DNA of 64,000 bases from Polytrichum commune (taxonomy: Eukaryota; Streptophyta; Polytrichopsida; Polytrichales; Polytrichaceae): positions 31,901,666 through 31,965,665 of the forward strand of contig OX485807.1 of assembly GCA_950295325.1 (NCBI GenBank). The letters are read 5' to 3'. Of this stretch, positions 8,380 to 57,337 are shown in pieces; the stretch's first letter is position 1; every line of letters begins with the position of its first letter. Made by a program: the position numbers and the translations under genes. The notes under the pieces are model-generated. The model made no database searches, had not been told where the DNA came from, and saw only the letters and a program-made list of their open reading frames with translations.

Positions 8380-9475
8380 TGCTTGAACTATGACATTTGC
8401 AAAATTGGTAAGTGGGATGCAATACCTCATCACCGGTAATGTGGCATTAGTCTTCATTATGAGAGGCTCATATGATTCTACGATACACTCTCCTTAAATA
8501 CCATTATTCTAATAATCATGCACCTTTAAAGCATCAGCTACATGCCCAACTACCGGTTTCATCTCAATCTAAAGTGTTGACTATGACCCCCTTTTCCTTA
8601 AGGAGGACTCTCTTATAATATTCTTACTCAACCTTCTCGAGTTCTTCTTGCTTCCTTGTACGAATCCAATCCTAGGTTGGGATCTATGTTCGGGGAAAAC
8701 CGACGGCTAGTTCATTATCAGCCGATGGATTTCTCCTCATGGCCGGTCCAAATTTCCAACCATCAGATGGCAATCCGACTGTAATTTCAATCCTCCGGCA
8801 ATTAGCCAATGAACCATAAAATGTCCCGGAAATGTAGCCGATTCTTCTTGTGAGTTACTCGATTTCAACCAGAAGCATCCAGAGTGCTATTTGTCTGGGG
8901 CATCTGATGATGCACTTGAGGAAGTACCCTTAACCTTAAACTTTTTGAATTATGCAACCTTTCCATGACCAAATCCAATTGCTTCTATGAAGAATTGGGG
9001 GACCCTTGGCCTTCAAGCGGTGAAGGCATTGCTAGGTTCAATTCCTGCCAAGGATATTAACTCTTCAAATTTAAAGTTTTGAACATGCCTTTCTTTTCAC
9101 TTATTCAAGATTTTGTACTAAGAAATGATTTCTAATAACTTTTCATACATTTTGTAAACAACTAGTGCCGATATGAAATCCATTTAATCGGATATTGGCC
9201 AATGAAAATATGAAAATATAGGCAATTGGTCGATTGACTTTACACAAGACCGGCTCTTGCCGATGTAAATTGGGAAAAATCCGACCCTTCGTAGCAACTA
9301 CCGGCAATTAGCCATTAAGGCTTCAAAAACTTCCCGAACTCTGATTGGGATACTCCTAAACTCTTAGACCTCTTCGTAAGTTATTGCTTCCTTAATCACG
9401 CTTACCAAGACTTCCTTAAATTGATTGACCTTCTTTGCCGTTATTAGTACTTATGAGAATGAAAATTCAATCAAG
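8380..9475. other. Unassigned stretch with a 14-bp direct repeat
   Basis: CCGGCAATTAGCCA occurs at 8795-8808 and again at 9301-9314, and CCGA/CCGG words are locally frequent. Decayed retroelement sequence is possible, but no coding domain or terminal pair can be shown. Confidence 0.3.
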
Positions 9476-22194: not shown

Positions 22195-22555
22195 TTAGAT
22201 TGCTTTGATCTACATATTGTTGGAAAGCTCTTAAGAGCATAGTTCTTATGGTGGTAGTTTTGTATGATTCCAAGTTATATTGGCAGAGTTATGAGCATTT
22301 GAAGGCATGTAAAGTTTTTGGAATTGATTTCTAGACATTGGTCTACTTTTGCAGATTTTGAGGTCATTTCAAATATGATATTCTTCATCTATACATTGTT
22401 GAAAAGTTATTGAAATTTCTCTTCTTTTGGTGTTAGTTTTGCTCACTATTGAGTTGTATTGGCATAGGTATGACTATTTGAAGGTTAATTGAGTTTTAGA
22501 ATTTGATTTCAAGACAATGATCTACTTTTGCACAGTCTGAGGTTAGTTTTGATCT
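22195..22555. repeat. Two diverged tandem copies of about 180 bp
   Basis: The order TACATTGTTG.AAAG, TAGTTTTG, AGTT.TATTGGCA, TATGA..ATTTGAAGG, then GATCTACTTTTGCA appears at 22205-22355 and again at 22390-22540. A leader or untranslated region of an old retroelement is possible, but no LTR pair or coding region supports this. Confidence 0.55.
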
Positions 22556-23084
22556 GATTATTCAGATTTGCAAATTTTTGCAAATTTATTGAAATATCAC
22601 ATTATTTGGTGGTTGAAATCATGCTCAATTGTTATTTACATTTTTATGGACAAGGGTGCAAGCACGGTAAAGTGGACAACTCTTGATCCTTGCACAAGTT
22701 TAAGTGAAAGTAATTCAAAACAATATATTAACTTTGAATTTTGTGATGAAATTAGAAAAACAATGTTGATCTACAAAGCCAAGCAATTTATGTTGACAAA
22801 ACCAATCATAAAAAATATATACATACTTTAGAAGACAGTGCAAGTGGGTGTGCAAGTGGTCATATTGAATAAGTAATTGTTAAAACTTTGTTTGAAATAT
22901 GATAAAATTACATTGAATAGATGATTTATTAAAAACATATTTGATGATGAACTCAAGCGTATAATAAATTCAAGGAATATGAAAATTGAAATCAAGTTCA
23001 AAATAATTAAGGTCATTGTCGCAACCCTTGCTAGCCCCCTTAACAATCTTGCCAATTTCCATTTCTAGCAAAGGTTACGAGTGC

Positions 23085-25594: not shown

Positions 25595-25632
25595 GGAGGA
25601 CGCTAAACACCCCCCCCCACGAACTTCTAGGG
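25595..25632 (+). repeat. Left terminal inverted repeat of the MULE
   Basis: 38 bp, paired with 37228-37264. The C run is 9 here and 8 in the partner; otherwise there is one C/T difference at position 7. Confidence 0.92.
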
Positions 25633-25799
25633 ATTCCCTCTGACAGCGCCAGGGCTGCCCGCGAGGTGACGACAGCAACGAAAACCTTCTCCGTCAACTC
25701 CGCTTTCACGTCCATACACGTCCGCGGTGAAAGCGTATTCCAGGCAACAGATCCAGATCTGAATATATACGGGACCACGTATATCGTACCACGTATACA

Positions 25800-26135
25800 T
25801 ATATGCATAGCTAGTTCTACATACCCAGTTCTGCATAGATAGTTCTACATACCCAGTTCTGCATATCTAGTTCCACATACCCAGTTCTGCATAGCTAGTT
25901 ATACATACCCAGTTCTGCGTAGCTAGTTCCATACCCAGTTCTGCATAGCTAGTTCTACATACCCAGTTCTACAAATCAAGATCTACATAGCTAGTCCAAA
26001 AGATATAGTTCCACATAGCCAGTTCTATAAATCAATATATACATAGCTAGTCCTAAAGATATAGTTATACATAACCAGTTATACAATAGCAGTTCTGCAT
26101 TTCTACAGATCTGCACGGCTGCAGTTCTGCACTTC
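25800..26135 (+). repeat. Left subterminal tandem array
   Basis: About six 28-bp units, CATAGCTAGTTCTA plus CATACCCAGTTCTG, each made of two 14-bp halves ending AGTTCT(A/G), followed by more degenerate units and paired CTACAGATCTGCA words. It carries seven GTTCTGC copies. The position just inside the terminal repeat suits a transposase- or regulator-binding region, or the transposase promoter. Confidence 0.88.
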
Positions 26136-26419
26136 TACAGATCTGCATTTGGCGTGATTTGCGGATCTAGGGTTTAAGGGTGTTGGAGCGACGACACACA
26201 GTTCTTTGCTCTGCGTGTGGTGGTTGAGGGTAGAGAGTCACTTATTCATTGGGCCTCGCTTTACTGATTTTGAGTTCTTTGCAATGCGATATACAGATTG
26301 TTGGATCGAATATTGAGGAATGAAAACCTTTAGGGGCATGTGAAGTTCTTCTGTACTCCAAACTGCCGGTTTAGGGCTTGTTCTGAAATTGCCTTCATTG
26401 CACGCACTTTCCTTGCAAT

Positions 26420-29400
26420 ATGTCTCATCCTCCATACATTGTAGAGTCTGACGATGACCTCCATGTACTTGCTCTTGCCACATTTCGTGCAACGCAGGCT
26501 GATCGTATAATTTCGCTGAGAGAGAGAGTCCAGAATCCTCCTCCAGGTCCATTTGCTATGGACGACTTGGTGTGGACCAACCACGTTTCTCAAGGCCAGG
26601 GGATACAGAAAACGTCTAAGCTGGCTGTCATTTTGTGGGATAGACTTGAGGATTTCATAAAGGGGGAGCAACAACATCCTCATTTCCCCTGCACTTTCAA
26701 CAAGAACATAGTCCGTGTTAACTTGCCACACTCATTGCGAGCACCTCGTGCACACAGTCCGGCAATTGTACTGAGGTTTGACATACTGCCTACATTGAAA
26801 TAGGAACCACACAAATTTCAAGTTCTGCAGTTTAGGGTTTAGCATAATGTGCTCGGTAGGAAAATGGCTAAAATATGCATTTCATTGTACACTCAAAATT
26901 TGGTTATCCATGTTACATTGCAGGTACAGGTGCAACTTTGGCCCTGAAGACAAGAGTGATATCGTACCAGATGACACGCAAGCTCTATTGAAATCCACGC
27001 AAAAAAAAAACAAACAGGCAATGGTGCACAAGAAGAAGCGGGGGAGGAAGGTAGTACCTGAATATGATTCCTTCCCATTAACCACATCAATCCGTCCCAA
27101 GGCCACGCGCATTGGCAAGACAGTAGCAGGCTATTCGGTGAAGAGAGGGTGCCAACGTTGTTTTGTTGCGAAGAAGCCCTACCTGGACCACTCGTTGTGT
27201 TTGCTCATTTACGAAAATGCAGAACACCTGAATGCTGCTGGAGAACACTGTCATGGCACCATGGTCTGTGGCTTCAGATATGCTCTCGGTGCCTGTGTAT
27301 CGGAGGAAATGAAACTTAAAATTGCTGAAATGCATGCCTATGGGTTATCCCCTGCCCAAATCATGCAACAACACACCAAAGAAGTGAGGGAGTTGGCACT
27401 CTCCAAAGGTTTGGTCACACGTGACACCTTCTTGTTGCCGTCGGACATCAAGAACATATGCCGTAAGAGGGCGGAAGACCTTTGGGAGAAACACCCGTCT
27501 GACCCCATCAGCGTCCGTATGTGGACAGCTGAGAATCCAGACAGCGTGTTCCACTACCAGGAACACTCGCTAATGGACCTTAATTCTCAAACACAGAACG
27601 ACTCACCTTTCACCATTGGCATACAAACTGAATGGCAACTTGAAATGATGGCAAAGTTCGGTCACAACAGCGCTCTTTCCATTGACGCGACATTTGGCAC
27701 GAGCCAGACTAGGGTGAGATGTTCTCCATGGCCTTTAGTGGATATAATAGGGACGCTTGCTACTACCTGTTGCCATTGTAAATTTGTTATCCTATCTGTA
27801 TGAAACATTGTTTCACCACTGTTGTAACAATTATGTTCCACGTTTTCTACAATACCCACTCTACACTGTGATGGTGTTTGACGATTGGAGGAATGGCATA
27901 CCTGTGGCCTTCTTTGTCATTTCACGGACACGTGAACAAGACCTCCGCCCAGTTCTGCAAGAGTTGCATCACAGGGTCCAAACAGTCAACTCAGACTGGA
28001 ATCCATCATCTATTATCGTTGACAATGCTCAAGCAGAAATTAATACGTTGGGGTAAGATAGTTTTTTTCCTTTTGTTCTGCATTCATTAAGTTGTATTGT
28101 CAAGTCGTGACGTACGTCTTTGACCACCTCATCCATCTGACACCTTCATATGCTCTGTGATTTTTGCAGCCTGGTGTGGCCCCAATCCAAAATCTTTCTG
28201 TGCTTGTGGCATGTCAGAAAGGCATGGGCAGAGAATGCAGTAAAGAAAATTTCCAACGCTGCAGAACGCACCACTGTTCTGCAAATGCTTGGTGATATAA
28301 TGTACGGCAAGGGTTGCAATGTTGACGATGATCCTGTCGATTGGGCCCTTTACCAATTGGACAGGATATCAAACAGTCGTCCATTGGCAACTTCATTCAT
28401 GAAATACATGAACGAGGTTTGGCGAGCCAAGACACCAATGTGGTGTGTTGGAGCTCGACGGATACCACATGCAGGACAGAACACTAACGCTGCTATTGAG
28501 TCTTACCATTGCAACTTGAAGAGTGTTCTAAACTCTGCCAAAGAGAGGTTTGTGGGTAGGCGCATGGATTGGCTTATATATCATCTGACGGGGGACGTTT
28601 TGACTCATTATTGGTACAGTGTACAGTGCAAGGCATTCGGATTCATACGCAACAGGAAGCAAGAAGGTATTGTTGCATCTGCAATTATAAGAGCAAACGA
28701 CATACCTGACACAAACGTCCTCATTTGTGAGGACGAAGATGTTGCATACGTTGGGTCTGTGAACAACCGCCTGAAGGTGTGGACCGTCAAGTGTCCGAAC
28801 TCCGAATGGGCACAATGCGACTGCCCAGTCGCCAATGAGGGCATGATTTGCAAGCACACCATCAAAGTCTTCAAGATGCTCCACCCTGGGATTGAGGATG
28901 GTGCTATAGTTCGTGAAGCAGGTACAAGACACGGAACCCAACGCGATACTCCTATGAAGCATGTGTACGCGAGGCTCTCGCAACAAACAACTCAAATCCA
29001 TGTTCCGGACAACGTGGGCAGCCCCTTCGAAGTTGAAACTGTGGTGCAGGACAATGTTCTGCAGTTGGATGTAGATGCAGAACACACCCCTCTAACTCCT
29101 GTGGAGCCTCTGTTTGTTGACTCTGAGAACCCCTCCCAGTTCTCAGCTCATGTTACACATGTTGACCCCAACGCGGTTACACTTTCCCAGGAGAGTTCTT
29201 CACATGCAGCTCCTGCCGCAATTGCGCGATGCTTATACAATTCCCTTGCTCTGAAGGCCGATCAGCACCCTGTTCTGCAAAATCACTTGATTGCTGGCCT
29301 TAGGCACATTAGGGGCAAGCAGAACCAGCTCATAGCACAAGGTGTTGCACATACACCACTGTCTCCTACGACGACCTCGTTCCCGGAGCGGTCTGGGGAC

Positions 29401-29472
29401 AACTCTTTAAAACGCCGTCGAGGTTTTCTGGAGTACCCGTTGAGGAAGAGAAGACTATCCTGCTCCAAATAA
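26420..29472 (+). CDS. MULE transposase with SWIM zinc finger (multi-exon, splice-defective)
   Basis: Proposed exons: 26420 to about 26710 (N-terminus, donor uncertain), 26924-27713, 27853-28052 and 28170-29472, about 860 residues. Exon 2 has a basic KKKRGRK segment and a Cys/His-rich region, and ends with SIDATFGTSQTR, whose Asp (27684-27686) is the first catalytic residue. Exon 3 begins YPLYTVMVFDDWRNG and contains IIVDNAQAE with the second Asp (28021-28023). Exon 4 has LCLWHVRKAW and NAAIESYH with the catalytic Glu (28498-28500). It then has a SWIM finger CDCPVANEGMICKH (CxCx8CxH, 28816-28857) and a basic KRRR...RKRR tail, probably nuclear targeting. The last intron (GGGTAAGA...TTTTTGCAG) is normal and in phase. 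The middle intron has donor AGGGTGAG, but the acceptor that would keep phase reads ACAA (27851-27852), and there is no AG at all between 27751 and 27886. The protein would cut and paste the element at its terminal repeats. It is convergent with the minus-strand genes. Confidence 0.87.
27851..27852 (+). other. Mutated 3' splice site in the transposase gene
   Basis: The phase-0 junction TCAGACTAGG/TACCCACTC restores the family sequence TFGTSQTR-YPLYTVMVF, but the acceptor dinucleotide is AA instead of AG. A single G-to-A change explains it. Confidence 0.75.
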
Positions 29473-29787
29473 TACACCTTCCCTCTGCCATTGTTTGGAT
29501 CGTTATTGTTATGCCCACTGGAGTTCTTATAGGGAGTTTATCGACTTACAATAATTATAGCATGTATTGTACTTATGTTCTGCTATATCAAACTATAAGT
29601 CATAATATATATGCAATATAATTGTACATGTTATTTTAGTTTATATAAAAAGTTTTTCCCAGTCACTCATCGCGTCCAAAGAGTCGCCTTCTCCTCCGTC
29701 AAAGCTCCTCGCCAACTCTCGTCTAACCACATCATTGACAAAGATCTTTGTGTAAGTTTATGTTCATAGAACGTGTGTAATAATATA

Positions 29788-29879
29788 TCAGTTGGCGATG
29801 TTCTGTAGAAGACCGGTATGTGTTCTGCGTTTAGTGTGTTCTAAAAAATATGTTCTGTATACAGAACATCGCCAACTGA
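29788..29879. repeat. Hairpin between convergent MULE genes
   Basis: TCAGTTGGCGATGTTCTGTA (29788-29807) and its exact reverse complement (29860-29879) form a 20-bp stem around a 52-bp loop that contains GTTCTGC and several TGTTCT words. It lies about 320 bp beyond the transposase stop codon and 570 bp before the end of the opposing gene. Confidence 0.85.
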
Positions 29880-30447
29880 TCCATCATAAGGCTGTTCTTA
29901 ATAAACAAGATTGGCAGACAATGTTCTACAGAACACACTCATGATGGTACCCAAAACACAATGTTGATCCTAATAATGTTCTATATACATACAGTGAAGA
30001 ATACTTTAGAGTCATAGCATGGTTGGGACATACCTAATATCGTGGTGCATGATGTCCTCCAACTCTCATGTTTCCGGCTGCACTCACGAAGAAACAATGT
30101 TAATCAGCTCTCCAACAGACAAGCATCCTCCCCAAATTGTAACAGCTATGCACCCCTCACAACTGCCAGAATGTCTCCAAAATGAAAATGCTTTATATAA
30201 AAGTGTCACATTTTCAGTGCAGTACAAGTGGTCTTTGACCATTCAATGCTATGTGTTTCAGGCTCCTTTGTATGCTAACCTCTGTATCCTGACCTGTTTG
30301 TGCTAGCATGTGTACCATGATCTTCATTATGTGTTCTGTGTTCTGTTCTAAACATGTGTTCTGTTCTAAACAACTATACACTATCTGGAGTTGTACAGTG
30401 TAATTTTCATTACACTTCCATTATACAACATGATACATATGTTACGA

Positions 30448-33400
30448 CTACACTCTACCGCTGTCGACTAGCTTCCGACTCACTTTAAACCTTGTTCTGC
30501 GATGACGTTTGCCGCTAGGTTTTCGGCGTTCTGGACTCTTAAACACAACTTTGACGTTCCACTCGGTCTTGTTCTTTCGTCCTTTCTCGATGACGTCAAT
30601 CAATGCGTTTCTGAAAACCTTCCTTGTACGCAAAGCATCGCTCCCACTATACTTCAACTCAAACGCCTGCAAGAACACGGCGAACATCAAAACATAGGTT
30701 GTAGAACATGGTCACCCCCCCTTATGGAAGTATTATACTTCATCTACGCAGGACTTTCTAATTATATAAGTAGGCTCTATCTTTATGTTGGTCTTTGGAG
30801 AGTTCTAAGTCCGAATTACCTCACACAATGATTGGGGACTATCTCTCACGGTCTTTGTGTACTCCATTATGTTCTTCAGCATGTAGAAACCGTAAGCCCA
30901 ACCCGAGTTTTGTTGGGGCACTCTTGCTTGTATCCACTCATGCGAAGAGCTAATAGCCTGCCAAAGACCTTCGTCGCTGTCGTGGCCACTCCATGCAGCC
31001 CACAACTTCGCGAGTCTCTTCTCAAGTTTGATGTCGGAATGGAGTTTAGAGCCTACCAACGAGTCCATATGGAAGAACCCATGTTCTCCTACTACGTACA
31101 CTGTCCAGTGTTTTCCGCAGGTGTAAGGAACTATTAGGGTTTTAGTATCTTGTGAGGGAAGCGAACCATACTTGTCGTGTATGAACGTTACATAAACCCC
31201 TAATGTTTCAGACTTTAATTCATCCACATGCGACATTAGTAGTGGACCAAGATAAGGACTGCAGATATGACATCCGTATTTCTCTATCTGGGGATTCAGC
31301 CACGCCGCAATCCACTCCATCATGTAGTTAGTCATCTCCCCATGATGTTGCACCATTGGCTTCAAGTCCTCTTTCCATTGCAGACTCAAAGGATCACCAC
31401 GATACTGAAACTCAAAACTTTTGACTTTCTTCCCACCTGCTTCAGCGACGATGGTGGCCACGAGTTCTTCAAGTCTGCAGATCACATGTCATCGTGTCAG
31501 GTGCGTTGTCAACAACCATGCAGAACACGCCAAGAAATTATACCTGAAGTAAAGAAACAATAAATAATTTACCTTCCATCAGTTCTATGTGTGGTCTTTC
31601 CCAGTGTGTCGTCCAGAATTGGGATGGGAGACTCTTCATTCATTGGTGATACGTGGTCCTCCTCCTCTGGTACTTGGTCGCATGCGGGGGGGAGTCGAAG
31701 GGGACACGTACTTGTGGGGGGAGGAACCTTCACCCAAGTGACTCACCGCGTGGTATGCGTCATTGAAGAGGGTGTCGGTTTCGGTCGATTGTTCTGCAGT
31801 GCCAGGCGAGCTGTCGGCGGAGGCCATTGGTTGGTCGACTGCAGAACTGGGGGGGTTGCAGTCGTTAAGATTGAATTTCCGAGCAGGCGACACCATAGTC
31901 CTGTCACCCGGAGGCCCTATTGCAAGCGTGAGCGACGGTGTCCTGTAAAACCACGATCCTTGAGATAAACCTTAACGTGCATGAGGAACATGCAATTTGC
32001 AGAACACAAAGGACGGTCAGTGAGTGGGACGAGACGTGAACTTGTTTGTCGTGTTCTGCAAATCTTTTGAAAGCTCCGTTAGTGAGAGATCCTGAGTGCT
32101 GATGCCTTCGACGCCCTCAAAGTCGCAATGCATGGGTATTGCGTCCAAGGTGTCTAGAGTCATGGCTTCGTTCACCTCGGCCACGAACCCCATAGCTGTC
32201 TCTGGTTTCTCGACTGGCATCACCACCTCCTTTCCCAGCAACGCCCTGGTGCAGTGTACGTCTGGGGCAATGTCGTCTGTTGCCTCCTCCACTCCTATTC
32301 CACAATTGAACAGTCGCAATTGTGTGGCCCTAAACTGATGCAGGCTCTATAACACCTCCTCCACCCGCAACTGCACGCAGCGGCTCTTAGTGTGCAGGTC
32401 GCCCAATGTCCATGAGCCTACGTCAATGTTTTCGCGGAAGACCATTGCCGAACACAATACCTGCGTCGCAGAGCGTTCACTTAGTTTGGTGTTCCCAGTT
32501 CCCAGTTCTACAATCGTTGTTCTACAATTCCAGTTCAACAAGCCAAGTTCTACCAAACACAGTTCTACCAAACCAAGGACGTTTGTGAATTGGGTCAGGT
32601 CCCTACCTCTTCGCAATCCCGTTGACGCTGCGGCTCGATGTCTGCGTTGAACCACATGTCCCCAAGTTCTGCTGCACGACGCATACGAACCATGTCTGCA
32701 AGGGCTCGCTGCGCGATCCTGCCGATGAAGGACTCCACCTTCACAACCACTGCATTTTGCACTGAAGGGTCGCATCCTAGCAGTGCTGCAACGTCCTCGA
32801 ACAATTTGTCCATGTGTTCTGCTGCATTGTGGATGCCAGGGAAGGTGCTCCACCAAGTCGTAGACAAGTTGGTCGCAATTCTCCTCAATGCGGCTGAGTG
32901 CTGCGGATGTCGAGCAAGCTCCATGATATATTCGCCATGCAGACCTCTCGTTGGGTGAGAGAGTGGACGATTGAAGCCCTCCAGACTCCTCACCAAATAC
33001 AACAACGCCCTCAAGATATGTGGGCATTCGCCTTCAAGAGACGGGGGCTCAATTCTTGTGTTCTGCAGCAGAACAGCAGACATGTCCCGCCACTCCGACT
33101 GCGTATGGTCCCATGGAGCAGCCCTAAAGTTAGGGAGAGGCCACTTCCTTAGAAGTTGGTACACGGGAGACCACTTCCACTTGGTTTCCTCCTCCTTCTC
33201 CTTGTTCGCGCGGTCATAATCTTCTAACGCCCTGTCGACGTGCTTCCTCCGCAATCCCTCGAAGTTCACCCTTGCGGCTACGACCTTCTCCTCCCACTCC
33301 TTCACTGCTAGCTTGTGAAGTATGTAGCTCCTCAACTCCTTGAGCTCCTCAAACACGCACATCTCCTTGTTCTGCTTAAACACCCTGACCTGTGCCTTCA

Positions 33401-33795
33401 CCTTCTCGACCCATTCGTTGTCTTCACCAGTTTTGTCTGCCTGCATCCACTGCAAAATAAAACATGGTTTATAAGTGGCTTCACACAATACCAATAAATC
33501 CCTAAACACTATAAGAACACAACAGCAAACCAACAACCAGATCATGCAGAACACGATAACCTTGCAGGACTACATAACTGCAGAACTGTACCTTAGCGTT
33601 GCCATACAAGTACCACTGCCCGAATGCGCTCCACATACGGGCTCCAATTGTGCCATCGTCCAATTGTTTCTTAAGGAATTGCACGCAGCCGTCCGGGTCC
33701 TCTAATAGGTGTTTGGGCACCCACGGCTCGGTCTGCAGGATGAGGATGTACATGCCGTTCACTGGTTTTGGCTCCGGAGGGGGCCCAACCTGATT
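30448..33795 (-). pseudogene. Ulp1-like (C48) cysteine protease gene, catalytic Cys replaced
   Basis: Probable exons on the minus strand: about 33791-33592 (NQVGPPPEPKPVNGMY...), 33449-32607 (charged helical region, WMQADKTGEDNEWV...), 32460 to about 32030, 31942-31573, 31474-30820 and 30666-30448. Most junctions have GT-AG signals in phase; the donor near 32030 was not found. The C-terminal domain has the C48 pattern: GKHW then HMDSL with His-to-Asp spacing of 15, and VPQQNSG with the oxyanion Gln. The catalytic site reads WAYGFYML where the family has DCG or ACG, so Cys is Tyr (codon 30894-30892). The last exon is very basic (KSPERRKPSGKRHRR). One TAG interrupts exon 3 (EEVL, stop, SLHQFR; about 32350). 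A C7 run (31692-31686) puts the upstream frame one base off the downstream frame PEEEDHVSPMNEE. Ulp1 relatives remove SUMO; the role of transposon copies is unclear. It may form one gene with the upstream finger ORF. Confidence 0.75.
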
Positions 33796-33810
33796 CTGCA
33801 CACTATAAAT

Positions 33811-35566
33811 TTATGTTGCCTCCTCGTACGTTTTTTTCTCACACTCCTCTCGCGTGAGGGGTTTATGTTGGAGGGGTGCAGGATGAACATTAGGTTGTTC
33901 CTCCGGCGGAGATTCGGACTCCAGCACAATTTCGTGGACGTAATATGGATGCTGCATATTGGCACTATGAGGACTGTGAAGGACAATACCTTCGTGCGCA
34001 GTGAGAGCACCAATGTAGTTGTATGCTTCAGCCTCTGGTTGGCGCAGTTCTGCAACCGGTGGCTGGCCATGTTCTGCACTCGCAGGTGTTGCCTGCAGAC
34101 GGTCGTGCTTGACAACACGGAAGTCTTTGTCTCCACTCTGTTGCGAATCTGGCGTTCCATCTGCAGAACTTGAATCGGACTCGCTACGCGAATTGCCCGA
34201 AGTCAGTTCCTCTTCGCTGGAGACGATGATAGTTCTTCGGGCTTGCTTATTCGTCTTCGTTCGTTGCCTTGAACATGTGGGTGACTTTGGGACTTTCGGC
34301 GCTGCCTTCACTGCCAGGTTGTATACCTTCCGAGGTGGTGATGATGGGAGAACTTCAACCGACGGGGTCCGTGTTCTACCAGCCACAAGAGGAGCCGCCG
34401 TCCTCGTTGGTAGCTTGCGTTTTCTTGATCCTGTACCCTGTTCTGCAGGGACAGCGGCCAACTTAGGGACAGGGACCAACGCAGAACCACTAGCCCCCCC
34501 TAAATCCAAAGGCGGAGGGAATGCTGACGGTGACTGGGACCGTGCAGCATTTGGGGACGACGCCTTCCCGTACTTTAAAGCAATCCTCTGCTTCTCACCG
34601 TGATTGTTTGGCTCCCAAGTAGGATACATCTTCAATGGTTTCGCCCCCTTGTAGCCCTTGCACATGTTGAACATCCTGTGGTGGGAAATCGTGTTCTTGT
34701 CTTTCCCGGACTCCCTACAATGAATGCAAATAAACATGTACCTGTTGTTAGCCTGTTTGTGCGTGTCCTTGGCCTGCTAATATGCCTCTAGCACCAGTTC
34801 TTCATACTCTTCCTCGGTGTAGATTGCTGCACAGTTCTTCCTGTTCTGTTTCATCGTACAGCGAAAAATCTTGGAAGTTCCTTTAGGGCCACCGAACACC
34901 TACAAAACATTATCAATGCAGAACATACCAATATGAGCTACCCACGCTGGAAGGAATAAATGGCATAAATGGCACAAACAACATGGCATAAATTCACATT
35001 CTGACCACACTTATACCAATAGCATAACGATGGTTGTGTTGAAGCAGCAATACACTAAGACCGATGCTAGAGAAAACAACAAAGAAAGAAAAATCAATAA
35101 TAAATTGCAGAACTGTCTTCAAGTGTGCATAATGCAGAACATGGGAGTGTATGTGGGTGGGCCTGTGGGTGACTGACAATGTGGATGTGTGCACCAGAAA
35201 ATTGAGCAACAACAACAACAACAACAACACGTAGTGGCTGTGCACAATGACATATTCAGGCGTTGAGAGTAGCTCATTTGCGAAGGAGCAGGAGTAGATA
35301 GACAGTTCTGTATGCGAATTTCTAAACACATAAAATAGGCCAATAAACATAAACAATAAGGGAATGTATGTGAAGGCGCTTACCCCTTCTTGAAATCCTG
35401 GCTTCCCATGTATACACAAGTCGACGAATTTTTCCCTCCCCAAAGACTTGATCATGTCTTCGTCCTCTACTACGTGCAAATCCACTGCAAGCGCCTCTGG
35501 CAGGAATTTCGCACCTGATTTATGCCTAGCAGATTTTGGTGCCGCTTTCCCTTCGGTCGACGCCAT
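33811..35566 (-). pseudogene. BED-like zinc-finger protein ORF of the MULE, one internal stop
   Basis: Exon 1 (35566-35384) starts at ATG with MASTEGKAAPKSARHKSG and ends FQEG. The donor GGGTAAGC and an acceptor TTTTGTAG place exon 2 at 34899-33811, giving QEG-VFGGPKGTSKIFRC in phase. Exon 2 contains CIHCRESGKDKNTISHHR followed by MFNMC, i.e. CxxC, a His pair and Cys with BED-finger-like spacing (BED: Cx2C, variable, Hx3-5 H or C). The rest is Ser/Pro/Ala-rich and basic, then Ser/Glu-rich. A TAG (34779-34777) lies between EELVLEAY and QAKDTHKQ just before the finger, so this copy is broken unless it is read through. The frame ends at TAA, about 15 bp before the first Ulp1-gene exon. A DNA-binding regulatory role is inferred from the finger only. 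Confidence 0.62.
35202..35229 (+). repeat. (CAA)n microsatellite in the finger-gene intron
   Basis: About nine CAA units within the intron between 34902 and 35383. Confidence 0.85.
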
Positions 35567-35609
35567 TTATTTGTGGAGGTATTACGCAGGAATTGTACCC
35601 AAAAAACAC

Positions 35610-35690
35610 TCAAAAGTACACTCAAAAGTACACTCAAAAGCACACTCAAAAGCACACTCAAAACTATACTCAAAACTGAGAATGCACTCA
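35610..35690 (-). repeat. 12-bp tandem repeat ACACTCAAAAGY upstream of the finger gene
   Basis: Five to six units of ACTCAAAAGTAC/ACTCAAAAGCAC directly upstream of the start at 35566. Related ACTCAAA words recur at 36010-36065. They lie in the likely promoter region of the minus-strand gene. Confidence 0.8.
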
Positions 35691-36324
35691 ATAAACCCTA
35701 CTCAATGAGTGTGTGAATTCAATGTGAGCGCATTTATGGTGTCTTAAATTCTACAATGCAATGGAACCACTACGATGCTATACAACAATCATCCACACTA
35801 AACACTATACTGCAAACCCTAACAGTTTCTACGCAGTGTATCTTCGCCACCACAATGCAACTACAAAAAATGCCCTCAACCCAACAAAAACACAGTGCAA
35901 GAATGAAAACCTGCTGCAGCGATACCCTAAAATTGCTTAAAGAATCTCTGAAGACGGCCATAAACAAACCGCGCGGAAACAGTTGTAACTGCTTAAAGCA
36001 TTTACTGCGTCCACACTCAAGTGCCACTCAAAACTCAATTGCCACTCAAATGCCACTCAAAACTCTTCGATTCACACTTACACCTCTACGAAACACACTC
36101 AAAGCGCTTCGAAACCGCTCGCATTCGCACACCATGCACTCAACAATCGCTCAAACCCTAATCGAATCCTCGCCTCACACACCTGAGAATGAAAATATGC
36201 GTAAATGAACCTACTGCAAGCGATTGAAGCTCCTGACGACATCTCCACGACGTAGACAGGAACCCTAAAGGTCGCTTCACTCGAATGCAATCAAATCGTA
36301 ATGATAGTTGGATCCACCATGCGT

Positions 36325-37076
36325 AGAACTAGCTTACCAGAACTGACTAGTTATAAGGGTATGTGCAGTACTAGGTTAGCAGAACTGACTAGTTATAAGG
36401 GTATGTGGAGAACTGGCTACGCAGAACTGACTAGTTAGAAGGGTTTGTGCAGAACCCCCTGCAGTTTTGCTAAATTACCCCTTGGAGTTCTGCAAATATA
36501 CCCCCTGCATTTCTGCTACCATGCCCTTGCAGTTTTGCTAAATTACCCCTTGGAGTTCTGCAAAAATACCCCCTTGGAGTTCTGTTCAAATACACCTTGG
36601 AGTTCTACAAATATACCCCCCTGCAGTTCTGCTACCATGCCCCCTGCAGTTTTGCTAAATTACCCCTTGAAGTTCTGCAAATATACCCCCTGCATTTCTG
36701 CTACCATGCCCCTGCAGTTTTGCTAAATTACCCCTTGGAGTTCTGCAAAAATACCCCCCTGCAGTTCTGCTCAAATACACCTTGGAGTTCTGCAAATATA
36801 CCCCCCTGTAGTTCTGCTACCATGCCCCCTGCAGTTTTGCTAAATTACCCCTTGCAGTTTTGCTAAATTACCCCTTGTAGTTCTGCTAACTTACCCCTTG
36901 GAGTTCTGCAAAAATACCCCCTGCAGTACTGCTAACTTACCCCTTGGAGTTCTGCAAAAATACCCCCTGCAGTTCTGCTAACTTACCCCTTGGAGTTCTG
37001 CAAAAATACCCCCTGCAGTTCTGCTAAAGTATATCCTCTTGTTCTGCTAAACATATCCCTTACCTGTTCTGCTAGT
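36325..37076 (-). repeat. Right subterminal tandem array
   Basis: It begins with about two and a half units of 48-50 bp (CAGAACTGACTAGTTATAAG...). These are followed by many 22-24 bp units of the form CCCTTGGAGTTCTGCAAAAA or CCCTGCAGTTCTGCTAAATT. It carries about 19 GTTCTGC copies. In reverse complement the outer units share ATACCC, CTAGT and AGTTCTGC with the left array, so the two arrays face each other like the terminal repeats. The translated peptides here are only repeat products. Confidence 0.88.
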
Positions 37077-37227
37077 ATTCGTATGTCCTACCGATACTCA
37101 TGGGAGTACGTACGAGTATCACATACAAAACTAGTATGGTATACCGGGGTTCGCAACGTCCGTCCGTGACGACCGGTTCGACCGGTACCCCCGCGACGGG
37201 CAGCACTGGAATTTCCTTCCAGGTGCC

Positions 37228-37264
37228 CCCTAGAAGTTCGTGGGGGGGGTGTTTAGCATCCTCC
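37228..37264 (-). repeat. Right terminal inverted repeat of the MULE
   Basis: 37 bp, complementary to 25595-25632. It is followed by the target duplication AAAGCACAC (37265-37273). Confidence 0.92.
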
Positions 37265-56453: not shown

Positions 56454-56879
56454 CAAATTCTCTCACATATCCCTCCATTTTATGAGTTCCAATCACAAAA
56501 ACACAGTAGATCTTGTATTCCATCTTTGATGACTAAGAGCAGTGCAGATAAGATTGTTTGAACAATCTCATGGTCTTTGGGGAGGCCAGTTGCACTCTAA
56601 AACGTGGAGCAGTGCTTTGACCTCAACCTCCTCCTCCTCCAATTTCCACCCTCATGAAAATCACAAATTCTCTCACATTTCCCTCCATTTTATGAGTTCC
56701 AATCACAAAAACACAATAGATCTTGTATTCCATCTTTGATGACTAAGAGCAGTGCATATAAGATTGTTTGAACAATCTCATGGTCTTTGGGGAGGCCAGT
56801 TGCACTCTAAAACGTGGAGCAGTGCTTTGACCTCAACCTCCTCCTCCTCTTCCTCCAATTTCCACCCTCATGAAATCCA
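56454..56879 (+). repeat. Recent 210-bp tandem duplication
   Basis: Two adjacent copies, 56454-56663 and 56664-56879, differ at about three bases and by a 6-bp expansion of a CCT tract. Each contains TTTTATGAGTTCCAATCACA, a GATTGTTTGAACAATC palindrome and GAGGCCAGTTGCACTC. Confidence 0.92.
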
Positions 56880-57337
56880 CAAACTAATAAGTTAGGCCAG
56901 GTCTTCTGCATCTGCTTCCGAACCTCATCAAATCCTTCACCTTAACTATTGGTTCTCTTGCAGTTTCTCACAACCCAACAACTCGAAGGTGCAATTTGCT
57001 CGTGAATCTGGCCTTCTTTGTGCATCTGTTTCACAGCTTTCGATCCACGAGGAGCCCACCTATGTGTTAAAGATTAAATTAGTGGGCAAAATCATGTGGT
57101 ATTTTGTGCTGTGGAGTGAAATATGGTGGACTTCTTGCATGCGGACAAGTGGCTCACAGTTTTCTTATCGCCACCTGAAGTTGTTGGGCGACAAGTGGCA
57201 TAGTTATGTTTTAATCCACCACATGCAGCGAAAAGATGGAACTTGTAGGCATTACCATGCATGACACTTTGATGAAATGTAGGGGGAGTGTGTTGGCACG
57301 TCGAATGCACCAAGCCATGCATCTTCGTTTCGGGTTA

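Follow-up and report, generated by a model that had tools for sequence, protein, structure and literature searches.

A short DNA word enriched in coding and non-coding sequence of a Mutator-like element family of the moss Polytrichum commune

Introduction

The closest described counterparts of the system reported here are the VANC proteins of Arabidopsis VANDAL transposons, which bind short, family-specific motifs that form arrays and differ between related families (PMC5735166). Binding of the motif by the protein and removal of DNA methylation characterize this anti-silencing system. In Arabidopsis, VANC acts from arrays that are mainly non-coding (PMC5735166; PMC10398659), and the VANDAL motifs come in sub-types, exemplified by YAGTATTAC/YAGTATTAT and by AGTTGTCC/AGTTGTAC (PMC5735166). 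Some VANC genes carry Ulp1, whose capture was dated to the split between monocots and eudicots (PMC13317346), and a meeting report mentions unpublished work on how the structure of VANC and its target DNA evolve together (PMC12859917). Here, we describe an element at 25595..37264 of a 64,000-nucleotide stretch of the genome of the moss Polytrichum commune (the window), a Mutator-like element (MULE) in which the heptamer GTTCTGC (GCAGAAC on the opposite strand), the core of the nine-letter word TGTTCTGCA, occurs at high density in coding and non-coding sequence alike.

The moss element resembles VANDAL21 and VANDAL6, for which VANC proteins have been described, in being of MULE type, in holding a short motif that is dense inside and rare elsewhere, and in carrying tandem arrays. 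It also shares with them a motif that varies between related families and has sub-types, which in the moss arrays are GTTCTGC and GTTCTAC. It differs in its host, a moss instead of Arabidopsis, in having terminal inverted repeats (TIRs), in showing no VANC domain in those pieces that were scanned, and in the location of its motif, since 21 of its 33 dispersed copies are exonic whereas the VANDAL motifs are mainly non-coding. With non-TIR MULEs whose VANC genes (KIU/Kaonashi) carry Ulp1 (PMC13317346), it may have in common a Ulp1-like part in its second gene, although the moss match stays under the cut-off and is preceded by a CxxC-H-C finger. The moss case would be separate from, or older than, the capture at the monocot-eudicot split. 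Subterminal repeats near the ends of plant transposons are bound by transposases; these are likewise short and arrayed near both ends, whereas in the moss element the core is spread over the interior as well, even within coding sequence. The DNA uptake sequences of Neisseria and Pasteurellaceae are short self-words dispersed in coding and non-coding DNA, which we mention as an analogy only and with no claim of a relation, as these concern whole bacterial genomes and the uptake of DNA. Our literature search found neither a dispersed coding-sequence motif comparable to that of GTTCTGC nor this moss family, from which we do not claim that none has been described.

Results

Counted on both strands, the window contains 63 copies of GTTCTGC, with 59 residing inside the element and 4 outside, close to the approximately 58 copies inside and 4-5 in the other 52 kb given in a preliminary description of this DNA. 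Between the arrays at both ends (26148-36318) we find 33 copies, where about 32 had been reported, compared to an expectation of 2.4 in an order-2 and 6.4 in an order-3 Markov model, both built from the same interior DNA, with the order-3 background already including much of the motif. The excess claimed previously, relative to an expectation of about 1.3 for random sequence, is confirmed. In the comparison with all 7-mers that had been suggested as a check, GTTCTGC ranks first in the interior under both models. Its z-score in the interior window is 19.2; among ten partly overlapping 10-kb windows taken from the repeat-masked flanks, five have poly-C as their top 7-mer (z 5.6-21.3), and that of the others reaches at most 7.3. 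The flanks are also not enriched in the common form of the word, TGTNCTNCA (6 vs 4.7 and 6 vs 4.8 expected). The features of the element are as follows:

25595..37264, no strand: whole MULE of subfamily A, with target duplication AAAGCGCAC at the left and AAAGCACAC at the right
25595..25632, no strand: left TIR (inverted-repeat pairs I4 and I5)
37228..37264, no strand: right TIR (inverted-repeat pairs I4 and I5)
25748..26147, plus strand: left subterminal array with 14/28-bp period, units AGTTCTAC and AGTTCTGC, 7 exact GTTCTGC
36325..37074, no strand: right subterminal arrays with 42-bp and 23-bp periods, 19 exact GTTCTGC
26822..35140, both strands: zone of dispersed GTTCTGC, 33 copies (21 exonic, 9 intronic, 3 in spacers)
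26420..29472, plus strand: transposase gene, exons approximately 26420-26775, 26924-27713, 27847-28052 and 28170-29472, GTTCTGC 8 exonic and 2 intronic
30808..35566, minus strand: second gene, exons approximately 35566-35385, 34905-33594, 33453-32600, 32495-32025, 31967-31639 and 31482-30808, GTTCTGC 13 exonic and 7 intronic
34660..34728, minus strand: conserved second-gene finger (CxxC...H...C), a candidate for reading the DNA
30808..31482, minus strand: Ulp1-like (C48) exon of the second gene, under the Pfam cut-off
34047..34077, minus strand: motif pair with 24 bp spacing in exon 2 of the second gene
29780..29887, no strand: inverted repeat lying between both convergent genes, with a GTTCTGC copy in its loop at 29822

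As described initially, the dispersed copies are distributed over transposase exons, introns, the minus-strand gene, spacers and a hairpin loop. Per kb, there are 3.0 copies in the exons of the transposase and 3.4 in those of the second gene (13 in 3823 bp), compared to 6.7 in introns (9 in 1334 bp). The 17 sense and 13 antisense copies within genes show no overall strand bias, and the exonic subset comprises 8 sense and 13 antisense copies. Exact copies are present in all introns except two, and all nine (26822, 28075, 31520, 31999, 33546, 33580, 34918, 35107 and 35134) are sense to their gene; for TGTNCTNCA the introns hold 7 sense and 1 antisense copies, and for GTTCTNC those of the second gene 7 and 4. 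Of 31 masked interior copies, 21 have a T directly ahead of the core, whereas this base is mostly A in the arrays, which contain both GTTCTGC and GTTCTAC. Gap sizes between dispersed copies look random (coefficient of variation 0.98), and an even spacing was rejected.

The presence of the motif in coding sequence was characterized by codon shuffles, in which synonymous codons are permuted with protein and codon usage fixed. In the transposase, the 8 observed copies compare to 1.40 in shuffles (reached in none of 20000), in the second gene 13 compare to 2.67 and in both genes together 21 to 3.89 (each reached in none of 1000). Ranked by codon-shuffle z, GTTCTGC is first of all 7-mers for both genes and second for the minus-strand gene alone. 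Its enrichment is thus independent of codon usage and protein sequence. The reading as Val-Leu-Gln or Ala-Glu-His/Arg noted previously is found in the transposase, where 4 of 4 Val-Leu-Gln are encoded as GTT CTG CA and 3 of 3 Ala-Glu-His/Arg as GCA GAA C. Among the 16 transposase loci investigated, 13 contain more coding TGTNCTNCA than their shuffles (fewer than 5% of 2000 reach the observed count), with 7-8 vs 1.45-1.79 in six copies of subfamily A, 7 vs 1.2 in two of subfamily X, 6 vs 1.1 in L032, 4 vs 0.95 in C4y, 4 vs 0.84 in L029, 3 vs 0.47 in L030 and 3 vs 0.66 in L033. The second gene of X, with approximately 49-70% amino-acid identity to A, contains 6-7 GTTCTGC vs 1.3-1.4 in shuffles, and both genes of subfamily w hold 9 copies of TGTNCTNCA vs 1.74 (reached in none of 2000). 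Together with the altered forms of the word in related elements described below, its presence throughout the element, exons included, suggests a mark for self-recognition whose strength suffices to influence the element's own codons.

A search of the moss genome (408 Mb, with seven contigs of 42-78 Mb accounting for about 406 Mb) identified at least 41 matches including the window copy, and 40 of 122 candidates were scored. Near-whole copies were read for A (five further members, 96-99%), X (two, 83%), y (two, 79%) and z (one, 76%); five more are partial (L029 to L034), with L029 and L034 belonging to a single w element (76%), of which they jointly give 11.5 kb. The word is present in all six A copies, the other five containing 60-66 GTTCTGC each in the stretches fetched. 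In rankings of 9-mers with tandem repeats masked, TGTTCTGCA is on top in both X, in C4y and in all six A copies except C4a, where it is fourth, and the top 9-mer of C2y after poly-C is TGTTCTTCA, which the y subfamily combines with other variants of TGTNCTNCA. The subfamily words are all variants of this one 9-mer: GTTCTGC is found 22-31 times in A and 19 times in X, where GTCCTGC adds 10-12 copies, C2y contains 11 GTTCTTC, and C4y 11 GTTCTTC, 10 GTTCTGC and 10 GTCCTTC. In w, TGTCCTTCA is found 10 times vs 0.33 expected and GTCCTTC 20 times vs 2.5, next to 2 GTTCTGC. TGTNCTNCA itself is found 24-27 times in A (3.0-3.4 expected), 25-26 times in X (about 3), 30 and 20 times in the two y copies (2.7 and 3.3), and 14 times in the portion of w with the transposase (1.5). 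Because of these counts we assign the word to the family, with its letters shifting between subfamilies. The left arrays of C4y and C1z also contain the variant GTCCTACA.

Alignments reveal how sites arise. Where A has a transposase site, its counterpart in X, y or z is often GTTCTTC or GTTCTAC (27952, 28276 and 29272), and at 29077, y and z carry GAAGAAC, which entails an amino-acid difference, Glu against Ala. In permutations that keep the observed codon-to-codon changes and relocate them among positions, GTTCTGC is gained 8 times from X to A vs 2.23 expected, and TGTNCTNCA 7 times from C2y to X vs 0.91 (each reached in 0 of 3000); in the direction from A to X, TGTNCTNCA is in excess (7 vs 2.89, p 0.009). 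Sites were thus gained by point substitution beyond what substitutions alone predict. In C4a, GTTCTAC has increased to 15 copies in masked DNA vs 1.5 expected, obtained via several routes. Methylation decay from CTG to CTA was rejected as their sole source, with 5 of 35 cases in the motif and 11 of 326 elsewhere (Fisher p 0.013), and with several sites due to other changes; for a shift of the word in this copy, these data are no more than suggestive.

The element is a MULE, as defined by its inverted ends, which place it with the TIR type, a target duplication, and the transposase domain PF10551 (59.1 bits vs a cut-off of 27.6 in a Pfam scan). The 9-bp duplication matches in 8 of 9 letters in the window copy and is complete in each of seven other copies (C2a, C2b, C6a, C5b, C4a, C7x and C3x). 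The transposase frame is open in the window copy. Its exon 3 start was placed by eye, as intron 2 (27714-27858) has no usual AG acceptor ahead of the reopening of the frame (TTCTACAATACCCACTC), and the transposase of this copy may thus be mis-spliced. Its database relatives number five, of which the one named is from the fungus Entomortierella parvispora, with no named plant among them. The exons of the second gene, with borders placed by eye from open frames, contain in-frame stops in the window copy. Between both genes, the 28-nt arms of the inverted repeat (29780-29807 and 29860-29887) are 89% complementary; motif-like TGTTCTG is found in arm and loop, and a hairpin transcript is possible.

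In the second-gene protein, the CxxC-H-C finger is kept among relatives. In databases, the second-gene piece searched has 14 relatives (E up to 0.1). The finger piece found no match among solved structures, and of its two models, both of low confidence (mean pLDDT 53.2 and 52.3), the second shows a beta-beta-alpha arrangement. The Ulp1-like exon matches PF02902 with 17 bits (E 0.0055) vs a cut-off of 20.7. In the region of exon 2, the other five A copies carry extra sequence with in-frame 24-bp motif repeats. In the C5b element (8390-8528, loci L017-L018) these amount to 5.8 copies with a motif in each unit, which results in a peptide repeat; among database relatives, P0126 has a long repeat that resembles it, and P0135 carries a related one. 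In P0131, P0134 and P0135, read-through tails past exon 2 include Val-Leu-Gln/His, the residues expected from GTNCTNCA, which hints that the intron of these relatives holds motif copies as well.

Discussion

Since the word is family-specific, lies on either strand, forms arrays but is also dispersed, occupies exons as well as introns and other non-coding DNA, was gained by point substitution and changes its letters between subfamilies, a DNA-level self-recognition mark explains it best, as had been proposed, and such a word would be selected by an element-encoded DNA-binding protein. The presumed restriction to a single 11.67-kb MULE did not hold, as all six A copies carry the word and related subfamilies its variants. 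With a probability of about 0.5, we thus consider TGTTCTGCA as the target of a protein that the element encodes and that binds DNA sequence-specifically, most likely with a VANC-like, anti-silencing role that includes gene bodies. With sites dense in the arrays near both ends and dispersed in introns and exons, such a protein could cover the whole element and would most likely protect it against silencing, the role that VANC has for the VANDAL elements of Arabidopsis. As leading candidate for the reader we infer the second-gene protein, with its conserved finger and Ulp1-like domain. It may cover the element and keep it active, a role proposed because VANC proteins do likewise and some of their genes carry Ulp1. 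Reader and site may drift together, leaving each subfamily with its own variant of TGTNCTNCA.

Several observations weigh against this assignment. The excess of coding TGTNCTNCA is not significant in C2y (2 vs 0.53), C1z (2 vs 0.64) and L031 (3 vs 1.03); their transposase frames contain 10-28 stops, those of C4y and L030 6 and 7. The subfamily z is weakly enriched (10 TGTNCTNCA vs 3.6 expected), and the coding count of GTCCTTC, the word of w itself, is 4 vs 1.31, which 64 of 2000 shuffles reach. The long right arrays of X are built of other units, and no excess of gained GTTCTGC is found in permutations from A to X (3 vs 2.47). No constraint on the motif is seen among recent A copies, with changes, summed over five comparisons, at 30 of 1176 motif and 1048 of 46513 other bases; since motif bases change about as fast as others, sites drift after insertion. 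The two free bases of TGTNCTNCA coincide with third codon positions in the Val-Leu-Gln frame, an incomplete account because copies exist in introns, spacers and antisense orientation. Neither the finger nor the Ulp1-like exon reaches a curated Pfam cut-off, and Pfam scans of pieces of the second gene, drawn from exons other than exon 5 and covering part of exon 4, gave no VANC domain (DUF1985, DUF287) with E limits of 1 in one scan and 0.1 in another.

A self-recognition code that resides in coding exons and is carried by a protein unrelated to VANC is a serious if tentative possibility. The finger/Ulp1-like protein and its 9-bp site would in this case have changed together among subfamilies, and selection on the site would have set codons and some amino acids. 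If true, this would clearly exemplify how selection acting on a DNA word can bend the sequence of protein-coding genes. The several natural variants of the word within one genome would permit residues of the protein to be mapped against them, and the sites inside gene bodies offer a testable case in a plant lineage far from Arabidopsis.

The transposase, the main rival of the second-gene protein, also remains a candidate reader. It might bind the arrays to unite both ends, with interior copies tuning transposition or marking the element's own DNA against self-insertion. The same core indeed builds the subterminal arrays of A, the location where transposases of other transposons bind, and both genes are conserved in the family. 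We regard this as unlikely, since X has kept the dispersed word despite its different right arrays, and end-like sites in exons would have no obvious use in the joining of ends. A host transcription or chromatin factor, whose sites were collected by the element for its expression, would be compatible with their density in gene bodies and introns, yet this is rather improbable in light of the flanks, which hold a host gene and show no enrichment; moreover, a single host factor does not predict a word that differs between subfamilies of one genome. An RNA-level signal, acting for example in splicing, has very little probability: the nine intronic copies are all sense, and exact copies are found in all introns but two, whereas the exons hold 8 sense and 13 antisense copies, the word abounds in arrays and in the spacers between genes, the intron variants TGTNCTNCA and GTTCTNC include antisense copies, and the balance of 17 to 13 shows no overall strand bias. 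The least credible explanation, a by-product of composition, repeated peptides or scattered array fragments, could draw on the in-frame 24-bp coding repeats of other A copies and on the third-position coincidence, but the codon shuffles rule out composition or peptide bias, single-substitution differences at orthologous sites and the different base before the core rule out array fragments, and the non-coding and antisense copies and the flank controls likewise speak against it; only a hidden bias shared by all subfamilies would revive this reading.

Further features of the window

The host gene in the window encodes a cationic amino acid transporter that is 72% identical to its counterpart from Ceratodon purpureus and 74% to that of Physcomitrium. 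In the left flank (1-25594), poly-C runs are unusually frequent, with 41 CCCCCCC vs 2.5 expected. Two tandem duplications are found outside the element, one of 179 bp at 22273-22595 (74% matching) and one of 210 bp at 56454-56883 (95% matching).

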